Positions 49,801-55,328 of a DNA stretch of 64,000 nt are shown here, in pieces (positions within the stretch are counted from its first letter, which is position 1; every line of letters begins with the position of its first letter). The notes below the pieces were generated by a model that saw only the letters and a list, made by a program, of their open reading frames with translations, did not search any database and was not told the origin of the DNA. The stretch is taken from the NCBI GenBank assembly GCA_902790325.1, contig CADARP010000001.1:248001-312000 (forward strand), written 5' to 3'. The position numbers and the translations under genes are program-made. Source of the stretch: Oscillospiraceae bacterium. GTDB lineage: Bacteria; Bacillota; Clostridia; Oscillospirales; Acutalibacteraceae.

Positions 49801-50916
49801 ATGACAAAAATCGATATTTTTTCCGGGTTTCTGGGCGCAGGCAAAACGACGCTCATCAAGCGCCTGATCGCCGACAGCTATAAAGGCGAGAAGCTCGTTC
49901 TCATCGAAAACGAGTTCGGCGAGATCGGCATCGACGGCGGTTTCATGCAGGACGCCGGCATCGAAGTTACCGAGATGAATTCCGGATGCATCTGCTGCAG
50001 TCTCGTCGGCGATTTCGGCGAAGCGCTGCGCAAGGTACTGGCCACGTATGCGCCCGACCGGATTCTGATCGAACCCTCGGGTGTCGGCAAGTTGTCCGAC
50101 GTCATCAAAGCGGTACAGGGGATCGGCAGCGAAGAAATTGCACTCAACGCGTTTACGACAGTCGTCGACGCAGGCAAATGCAAAATGTACATGAAAAACT
50201 TCGGCGAGTTCTTCAACGATCAAGTCGAGCACGCCGGCACGATCATCATGAGTCACGCCGACGTCGTCAAGCCGGATAAGCTTGAGACAGCCGTTGCGCT
50301 CGTGCGCGAAAAGAATCCGACCGCCGTCATCGTGACCACGCCGATCACAGAGCTTTCGGGCGAAGCGCTGCTGGACGCCATCGAGCGCAAAGATACCCTC
50401 AACGCTGCAATCGAGCATCTGATGGAGGAGCAGGAACACGAGCATCACCATCATCACGACCATGACCATGAACATGACCATGAGCACCATCATGAACACG
50501 AACATGACCATGAACACGAACATGACCACCATCATGACCATGACCATGAGCATGAGCATGACCACGAACACCATCACCACGAGCACGGCGAAGACTGCAC
50601 CTGCGGGTGCCATGATCACGACCACCACCATCATCACGCTGACGAAGTGTTCACGAGCTGGGGCAGGGAATCGACCAAATCGTTCACAAAGGACGAATTG
50701 GAAACCGTTCTTTCGCAGCTGGAAGACGAAAAGCTGTACGGCAGAATCCTGCGTGCAAAAGGCATCGTGCCCGCTGCGGACGGCAGTTGGATCCACTTCG
50801 ACTACATTCCCGGCGAGGCCGACGTGCGTACCGGCTCCGCAGGCGTGATCGGCAGACTCTGCGTTATCGGAGCAGAACTGCATGAGGAAGCACTCGGCAC
50901 GCTATTCGGCGTATGA
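49801..50916 (+). CDS. G3E (CobW/ZNG1-like) GTPase with a long His-rich tract
   Basis: 371 residues. P-loop GFLGAGKTT (9-17), the metal-site CxCC motif GCICC (63-67), IEPSGVGK switch and the usual C-terminal CobW_C domain (about 285-371). Between them residues about 210-280 hold some 38 His alternating with Asp and Glu, plus a CTCGC cluster; this is a metal reservoir of the type seen in HypB and some COG0523 zinc chaperones. Likely metal delivery under zinc limitation or nickel/cobalt handling. It follows copA by 18 bases. Confidence 0.9.
   Translation: MTKIDIFSGFLGAGKTTLIKRLIADSYKGEKLVLIENEFGEIGIDGGFMQDAGIEVTEMNSGCICCSLVGDFGEALRKVLATYAPDRILIEPSGVGKLSDVIKAVQGIGSEEIALNAFTTVVDAGKCKMYMKNFGEFFNDQVEHAGTIIMSHADVVKPDKLETAVALVREKNPTAVIVTTPITELSGEALLDAIERKDTLNAAIEHLMEEQEHEHHHHHDHDHEHDHEHHHEHEHDHEHEHDHHHDHDHEHEHDHEHHHHEHGEDCTCGCHDHDHHHHHADEVFTSWGRESTKSFTKDELETVLSQLEDEKLYGRILRAKGIVPAADGSWIHFDYIPGEADVRTGSAGVIGRLCVIGAELHEEALGTLFGV
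50434..50640 (+). repeat. CAT/CAC-GAC/GAA hexamer-like coding repeat
   Basis: Codons for His alternate with codons for Asp and Glu, giving short imperfect repeats such as CATGACCATGAA. It codes the His-rich tract of the GTPase and is prone to length change. Confidence 0.85.
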
Positions 50917-50927
50917 GGAAATCAGCC

Positions 50928-51872
50928 ATGAAAGAAATACCTGTCTATTTGTTCACCGGCTTTCTCGAAAGCGGAAAAACAACATTCATCCAGGACACAT
51001 TGCAGGACAAACGGTTCAACTCCGGCGAAAAGACACTTTTGCTCGTGTGCGAGGAAGGCGAGCAGGAGTACGAACCGGAGGAATTTTCCGGCCGCAACGT
51101 AACGATCCAAACATTGGACGGTGCGGAAGATCTGACCGAGGAAAACCTCGACCGCTGGGCGAACGAAAGTCATTGCGAGCGTGTCATCATCGAATACAAC
51201 GGCATGTGGCTGATCCAGACTCTGTATGACGCGATGCCGCGCGGATGGCTGCCGTATCAGAACATGCTGTTTTTCGACGGCAGATCGTTTCTCAACTACA
51301 ACGCGAACATGCGTTCTCTTGTCGTGGATAAGCTGCAGGATTGCGAGCTGTGTGTGTTCAACCGTCTGCCGGACGACGCCGATACCATGGAACTGCATAA
51401 GATCGTGCGCGGCGTCAGTCGTCGGACGGATATCATTTACGAATATCATGACGGCAAGGTCGTACCGGACGAGATGGAAGATCCGCTGCCGTTCGATATC
51501 GACGCGCCCGTGATCGAAGTTGCGGACGAAGACTATGCGCTGTTTTACCGGGATCTGACCGAAGAGCCGCGCAAATACGTCGGAAAAACCGTGCGAACCA
51601 AGGTTCAGGCCGTGACGGACAAACGGTTTCCGGACGGTCACTGCGCGATGGGACGGCACATCATGACGTGTTGTGTCGAGGACATCACGTACTGTCCGCT
51701 GGTGTCAAAGATCGCGGACGGTATGCAGATCGACAATACCGGATGGTATATCATTACGGCGAAGATCGACCTGCGGTTCTCACGAATGTACGGCAAAAAA
51801 GGTCCGGTCTTTTTACTGCAAAGCGCAGAAAAAGCCGAACCGCCGACACAAAAGGTCGCTACATTTTATTGA
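50928..51872 (+). CDS. Second G3E-type GTPase with a C-terminal OB-like domain
   Basis: 314 residues. P-loop GFLESGKTT near residues 10-18 and a shortened CobW-like GTPase domain lacking the CxCC motif, followed by a C-terminal beta-rich domain (about 180-314, with MGRHIMTCCVEDITYCPLV) similar to DUF1980/TIGR03943 permease partners. ATG 50928 follows GAGGAAA; an ATG at 50913 overlaps the preceding stop and is an alternative. Probable metal chaperone that works with the upstream GTPase. Confidence 0.82.
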   Translation: MKEIPVYLFTGFLESGKTTFIQDTLQDKRFNSGEKTLLLVCEEGEQEYEPEEFSGRNVTIQTLDGAEDLTEENLDRWANESHCERVIIEYNGMWLIQTLYDAMPRGWLPYQNMLFFDGRSFLNYNANMRSLVVDKLQDCELCVFNRLPDDADTMELHKIVRGVSRRTDIIYEYHDGKVVPDEMEDPLPFDIDAPVIEVADEDYALFYRDLTEEPRKYVGKTVRTKVQAVTDKRFPDGHCAMGRHIMTCCVEDITYCPLVSKIADGMQIDNTGWYIITAKIDLRFSRMYGKKGPVFLLQSAEKAEPPTQKVATFY

Positions 51873-54495: not shown

Positions 54496-54524
54496 AGTAT
54501 ACCACAGGAAAACAGAATTGTAAA
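54496..54524 (-). promoter_or_regulatory. trpS promoter (divergent pair with HAD phosphatase)
   Basis: Minus strand TTTACA (54524-54519), 17-base spacer, TATACT (54501-54496). Its -35 hexamer overlaps that of the plus-strand promoter at 54518-54546. Confidence 0.72.
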
Positions 54525-54546
54525 TTATAATTTTTTATGCTATGAT
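54518..54546 (+). promoter_or_regulatory. Promoter of the HAD phosphatase gene
   Basis: TTGTAA (54518-54523), 17-base spacer, TATGAT (54541-54546). The -35 box occupies the same bases as the trpS -35 box. Confidence 0.6.
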
Positions 54547-54568
54547 AATTTTCAGGGAGGCGATCACA

Positions 54569-55225
54569 ATGCGGTATCAAACCGTAGTTTTTGATTTTGA
54601 CGGCACAGTCGCCGATACGGCGCAGGGGATCTTTGAGAGCGTGCAGTATGCACTGAAAAAGCTGGAATTGCCGCCTGCGTCCGAGCAGACGCTGCGATGC
54701 TTTATCGGTCCGCCGCTGCCGTACAGTTTCCGCCAATTCATCGGTCTGTCGGATGAAACGGCAGAACAGGCCGTCCGCTTCTATCGCGAAAACTACAGCG
54801 AGCAGGGGAAGTATAAACTGCGCTTTTATGACGGAATACCGGAATTGATGCTGTCACTGCGCAGAGCGGGCGTGCACACTTGTCTTGCCAGCGCAAAACC
54901 TGATCGGTTTATCCAAGAGATTCTCAAACACTTCGGTGCGCAAAGCTGGTTCGACTGCGCGCTGGGTATGCCCATGCAGGAGCAGAGCGCGGACAAGAGC
55001 GGCATCATCCTCGACGTCATGAACCGCGCCGGCGCAGTCGAAAAGGATCGTGTACTGATGGTCGGCGACACAAAATACGACATGATCGGTGCAAAAGAAC
55101 TCGGCGTCGACGCACTCGGCGTGCTTTATGGCTACGGTTCCGCGGAAGAATTGACTTCTTCCGGCGCGGACTACATCGTCCGAACGCCGCAGGAAATCGC
55201 GACGATCGTCGGAATCGACAAGTGA
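54569..55225 (+). CDS. HAD family phosphatase (phosphoglycolate phosphatase-like)
   Basis: 218 residues. HAD motifs: FDFDGTVADT (8-17) with the nucleophile Asp10 and Asp12, SAKPDRF (motif II/III region) and MVGDTKYDMIGAKE (motif IV). A helical cap between motifs I and II places it in subfamily I with Gph/PpaX. AGGGAGG precedes ATG 54569; substrate not determined. Confidence 0.88.
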   Translation: MRYQTVVFDFDGTVADTAQGIFESVQYALKKLELPPASEQTLRCFIGPPLPYSFRQFIGLSDETAEQAVRFYRENYSEQGKYKLRFYDGIPELMLSLRRAGVHTCLASAKPDRFIQEILKHFGAQSWFDCALGMPMQEQSADKSGIILDVMNRAGAVEKDRVLMVGDTKYDMIGAKELGVDALGVLYGYGSAEELTSSGADYIVRTPQEIATIVGIDK

Positions 55226-55250
55226 TCTCGCTTTACAAGTCTCGTTGCAT

Positions 55251-55314
55251 GTAAAGCGTTTTGCTTAACACTGTAAAGCGATTTTCTTTACGCTATAAAG
55301 TTTTTCTACTTTAC
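55251..55314 (+). repeat. Three tandem 22-base near-palindromes upstream of the TetM-like gene
   Basis: Units begin at 55251, 55273 and 55295. Each has GTAAAG (ATAAAG in the third), a 7-8 base middle, and CTTTAC (CTTAAC in the first). The 22-base period equals about two helical turns, so bound dimers would line up on one DNA face. A single CTTTAC half is also at 55231. Likely operator sites controlling the GTPase gene that starts at 55329; a weak -10 (TATAAA at 55294) lies inside the third unit. Confidence 0.75.
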
Positions 55315-55328
55315 ACGCGAGGTTGAAA

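Follow-up and report, generated by a model that had tools for sequence, protein, structure and literature searches.

YlxM is reported to be an accessory of the signal recognition particle (SRP), with Ffh and SRP RNA as its binding partners (PMC8546722, citing Williams 2014, and PMC4993169); elsewhere it is counted among putative helix-turn-helix proteins (PMC5344976), and a promoter has been placed upstream of ylxM in B. subtilis (PMC10100781). In the literature that we searched, we found no DNA target, operator or autoregulation for this protein, and any claim of novelty made here for a ylxM operator reaches as far as that literature. The protein has solved relatives (1S7O and 1XSV), and its gene is present in nearly every Bacillota genome that we searched. 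What, then, might its helix-turn-helix be for? With a conserved operator at the ylxM promoter, the domain would have a function open to testing; such an operator, if real, would also connect the secretion machinery to the control of genes and, in its motif, supply a search pattern for further targets.

Here, we try to answer a narrower question: what reads three inverted repeats (dyads) that stand before a translational GTPase gene in a stretch of 64,000 nucleotides from an Oscillospiraceae bacterium, which we call the window? We think it likely, judging from the sequences that we have compared, that these dyads are operators for YlxM, that YlxM would use the same kind of site to repress its own ylxM–ffh operon, and that the array would act as a cooperative block before the GTPase gene.

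Results

Three tandem dyads of the GTAAAG-N7/8-CTTTAC type begin at 55251, 55273 and 55295, each start lying 22 nt from the next, and the 3' end of the array directly precedes the ribosome site and the ATG of the GTPase gene (Table 1). An earlier note on this DNA had described them in this way, and the sequence bears it out, two of the three carrying one mismatch; a degenerate fourth dyad, absent from that note, has one good half-site (CTTTACA, 55231–55237). One exact match to the dyad pattern is present in the window, and 100 shuffles gave none. Dyads 1–3 all fit the form of the box found at ylxM (inverted half-sites TGTHAAG and CTTDACA with a spacer of 7–8), dyad 3 departing from the ylxM consensus at the second half-site position (TATAAAG). 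The centers of their spacers are A/T-rich (wholly so in dyads 1 and 2, three of four positions in dyad 3); for comparison, 62 of the 85 ylxM boxes in the class have an all-A/T center.

Table 1. Coordinates of the features around the dyad array, in window positions
Feature	Position	Strand	Remarks
Candidate sigma-A promoter before HAD gene, TTGTAA-N17-TATGAT	54518..54546	+	consensus match only, 9/12
HAD-family phosphatase gene, upstream of GTPase gene	54542..55225	+	real start perhaps 54569
Degenerate fourth dyad, GACAAG-N8-CTTTAC(A)	55217..55237	.	two mismatches; overlaps HAD stop codon
Dyad 1, TGTAAAG-N7-CTTAACA	55250..55270	.	core GTAAAG-N7-CTTAAC 55251-55269, one mismatch
Dyad 2, TGTAAAG-N7-CTTTACG	55272..55292	.	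exact core GTAAAG-N7-CTTTAC 55273-55291
Dyad 3, TATAAAG-N8-CTTTACA	55294..55315	.	core ATAAAG-N8-CTTTAC 55295-55314, one mismatch
Shine-Dalgarno-like GAGG of GTPase gene	55319..55322	+	sequence
EF-G/TetM-like translational GTPase, 648 aa	55329..57275	+	below ribosomal-protection-protein cut-off

These dyads are real, and they are conserved. The earlier note had proposed looking for them upstream of orthologous GTPase genes, and in both genus orthologues with upstream DNA available (L157 and L158, 66% identity) the array is kept, as three dyads (one degenerate) in the first and as two exact dyads with a degenerate third in the second, the spacer letters having changed in both. Farther away, none of 74 upstream regions of more distant GTPase homologues holds a dyad with one mismatch or fewer. 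The HAD gene adjoins the array in the G002 orthologue (L310) as well, and it is probably co-transcribed with the GTPase gene. Between these two genes, a search for a sigma-A promoter gave no match in the window, L157 or L158.

The GTPase itself has the domain order of an EF-G-like protein (PF00009, PF22042, PF14492, PF03764, PF00679), scoring 427.5 bits against NF012153 (cut-off 775) and 291.8 against NF033148 (cut-off 1100), and for all the ribosomal-protection families listed it stays under the cut-off. The label “TetM-like” given to it in the earlier note holds only loosely: 427 bits compares with the 775 set as the cut-off for ribosomal protection proteins. Two further GTPase ORFs of CobW/G3E-like appearance, one of which (the first) contains an extended run rich in His, can be read from the sequence at window positions 49801–51872.

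The dyad is by no means confined to this locus. Across the whole genome, GTAAAGN{4,8}CTTTAC occurs in 17 places, compared with 1 for the reversed control, and its spacing there is always 8 (13 sites) or 7 (4 sites). When one mismatch was tolerated, matches numbered 26 (control, 7) at spacing 8 and only 10 (control, 9) at spacing 7. It is only the paired form that is enriched: the single word TGTAAAG occurs 187 times and the reversed word 292 times, and on these counts we rejected the idea of an over-represented word or uptake sequence. Five other genomes of the genus carry 8–22 exact copies each (controls, 0–2). One of them, G002, has near its contig ends (e.g., L264 and L269) about 10 copies of GTAAAGTCAGGGGGCTTTAC with a perfect dyad inside, probably a repeat element that accounts for about 10 of the exact copies in that genome. 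Wider still, among 297 genomes of the order, TGTAAAG-N8-CTTTACA is found in 0–13 copies per genome with very few control matches, and in one family (f13) nearly every sampled genome has one to five exact copies, mostly exactly one.

Genome sites were gathered from pattern searches and sequence stretches, and we catalogued 83 exact ones in the genus: 41 were called in genes, and the remaining 42 fall outside them or at the edge of one, a division that is approximate because genes were called with a simple codon-score caller. Seven of the 42 adjoin ylxM. Several intergenic sites precede genes for exported proteins, and a regulon of SRP substrates may be a lead worth having. Steps between neighboring sites cluster near 22–25, 32–35 and 42–46 nt, and 11 is the best-fitting period among the several that we tried (R 0.565, 50 pairs, with related loci and mismatched sites among the pairs).

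A few of these sites deserve mention in their own right. A dyad lies within hisA in three species (L021:10420, L294:2021, L263:1501); the codons under both half-sites are identical in all three, whereas the neighboring codons differ. In four species, dyads recur after the same upstream gene (L027:4497, L298:2044, L289:2002, L272:1928), and in L027 and L298, the gene next to the recurrent dyad encodes a signal-peptide protein, possibly an SRP-linked target. Before acpP in three species (L016:4019-4123, L283:1960-2063, L257 ~1320-1520) there are intergenic 9-mers resembling DnaA boxes; in L016 and L283 these 9-mers lie between a pair of dyads separated by about 85 nt. The idea that the dyads belong to an origin was ruled out: dnaA is on another contig, and the dnaA loci that we fetched are without the box.

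Where does the dyad sit when a genome has so few? In all nine f13 loci that we examined, the exact dyad is at ylxM, directly after the promoter −10, and the gene downstream is ylxM (PF04297), followed by ffh. The dyad likewise follows the −10 of the ylxM promoter at C2:77263 in the genome of the window, and further members of the family to which this genome belongs show the same arrangement. We assembled 89 ylxM loci, mostly from Clostridia: 70 came from a class-wide search and 19 from the order of the window, the latter having been found by way of the motif itself and so not being independent of it. A box TGTHAAG-N7/8-CTTDACA with a score of at least 11 lies upstream of ylxM in 85 of the 89; the four ylxM loci with no recognizable box (L236, L238 and L248, from one family, and L244) all belong to the class-wide set. 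Counted by regular expression, the box is at 80 of the 89, and shuffled upstream sequences average 0. The best-scoring 30 ylxM loci of a phylum-wide search (not a random sample) all have the box upstream, with spacing 8 as the best match.

In 75 of the 85, the box starts no more than 14 nt beyond a −10 (in one case it shares a base with the −10), and in 8 it takes in the −35, whereas 1.7% of random positions follow a −10 in this way and 1.8% contain a −35. A repressor would be expected to have its site there. At four loci (L187, L189, L192 and L195), the box takes the form TGTTAAG-N8-CTTGACA, and at L187 this CTTGACA can be taken for the −35 of the promoter of ylxM.

The half-site itself looks like a −35 element (it is CTTTACA here, and in other lineages frequently CTTGACA), and the YlxM of this genome matches Pfam Sigma70_r4 (30.1 bits; cut-off 24.1). 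In our own alignment, YlxM R46, Q47 and R50 would stand beside sigma-70 R584, E585 and R588. Among ylxM boxes, the half-site TGTxAAG has either A or C/T as its fourth base, and in 57 YlxM representatives below 70% identity, this base is associated at p<0.04 with 14 protein columns, 8 of which fall within the recognition-helix region 44–57. Where YlxM has Arg50, both halves of the box are A-type in 18 of 19 cases; where it has another residue, they are so in 15 of 38. Shared descent contributes to this covariation, because the sequences are related and columns 3 and 25, outside the recognition helix, score as well.

Discussion

Because the motif lies on the ylxM promoter in most of the Bacillota genomes that we examined, YlxM may well be a repressor that binds DNA at a target which can be defined and tested. 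The proposal in the earlier note that the dyads are sites for a DNA-binding protein is supported: that is what they look like, and the array is kept in both orthologues with upstream DNA available. How might such sites work? We imagine a YlxM dimer that would read two inverted −35-like half-sites (CTTTACA, consensus CTTDACA) placed 7–8 bp apart. At ylxM, one such site, placed over either the −35 box or the region where transcription would start, would give negative autoregulation of the ylxM operon; between the HAD and GTPase genes, three sites at steps of ~22 bp (about two helical turns) could together impose a cooperative block on transcription. We favor a roadblock within the HAD–GTPase operon as the means of GTPase repression because the spacer has no sigma-A promoter match. 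The state of the SRP would be a natural candidate for the signal that relieves the block, since YlxM is reported to bind both Ffh and SRP RNA. In this genus, YlxM sites would have spread to the ~8–22 exact copies per genome, many of them in genes, and there simple promoter repression fails to explain about half of the exact sites.

It is, of course, possible to imagine another reader. A different DNA-binding protein might recognize the dyads, with ylxM–ffh one target among several, and the many genus sites that are in genes and far from ylxM speak for such a protein, as does the fact that binding by YlxM is itself a prediction. We nevertheless consider it unlikely: most f13 genomes have a single exact site, which is at ylxM in the nine examined, the half-site varies with residues of the YlxM recognition helix, and a helix-turn-helix of the sigma-region-4 kind suits a −35-like half-site.

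Nor do we give much of a chance, indeed rather less, to the thought that these are chromosome-organizing sites of a nucleoid-type protein (YlxM or some other), with the position before the GTPase gene incidental. Sites that are widespread, clustered and often in coding sequence, that are conserved there (hisA) and that flank a DnaA-box-like cluster before acpP would sit comfortably with such a role. At ylxM, however, the motif goes together with promoter elements, the array has stayed in place between the HAD gene and the GTPase gene, the exact copies are few (8–22 per genus genome) and the fetched dnaA loci have none.

Could the repeats work instead as RNA, as leader hairpins that act by attenuation or offer a protein its RNA site? 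The array lies in a spacer that is probably transcribed and that folds modestly better than its shuffles (z −2.3), and SRP RNA binding has been reported for YlxM (cited in PMC8546722). A search of Rfam gave no match above the gathering score. The dyads seem to act as DNA rather than RNA: 29 of the 85 ylxM boxes have unequal halves that would pair badly in an RNA hairpin, and the 8 that cover the −35 would be left out of any transcript begun at that promoter. Roughly half of all sites, moreover, lie in genes, and we hold a hairpin role to be very improbable.

Least credible of all is the regulator that the earlier note had supposed, one dedicated to the GTPase gene and inducible by ribosome-targeting antibiotics: although the array is conserved before orthologues, the same motif is a conserved element of ylxM promoters across the phylum and sits at many other loci in this genome, so that its reader is probably not dedicated to the GTPase, no regulator gene was recognized among the four genes profiled at the GTPase, and the GTPase is below the resistance-family cut-off. 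Antibiotic-inducible ribosome protection is not supported.

That leaves YlxM as the reader that we prefer, and it invites a broader proposition: YlxM, the SRP helper, may double across Bacillota as a repressor that recognizes specific sequences, descends from sigma region 4 and couples the state of the SRP to transcription, its sites having multiplied in this lineage into a genome-wide set that takes in a translational GTPase. We could as readily believe this larger claim as doubt it.

Comparison with known systems

The tet(M) genes with their leader-peptide attenuation, to which the earlier note had looked, offer a likeness in that a control element stands before a TetM-like gene; here, however, the element consists of DNA dyads, no leader-peptide attenuator was recognized and the GTPase of the window does not qualify for the resistance family. 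With YlxM/UPF0122 (PF04297) as it has been described, our candidate shares the protein family itself, the company of ffh and a helix-turn-helix like that of sigma region 4, but the reported role is the binding of Ffh and SRP RNA, whereas we predict a DNA operator. The third comparison is with sigma-70 region 4 and the −35 element: CTTTACA or CTTGACA resembles (c)TTGACA, and YlxM matches Sigma70_r4. In our case, though, two half-sites are inverted at a distance of 7–8 bp and are apparently read by a stand-alone protein, and the outcome would appear to be the blocking of a promoter rather than the recruitment of polymerase to it.
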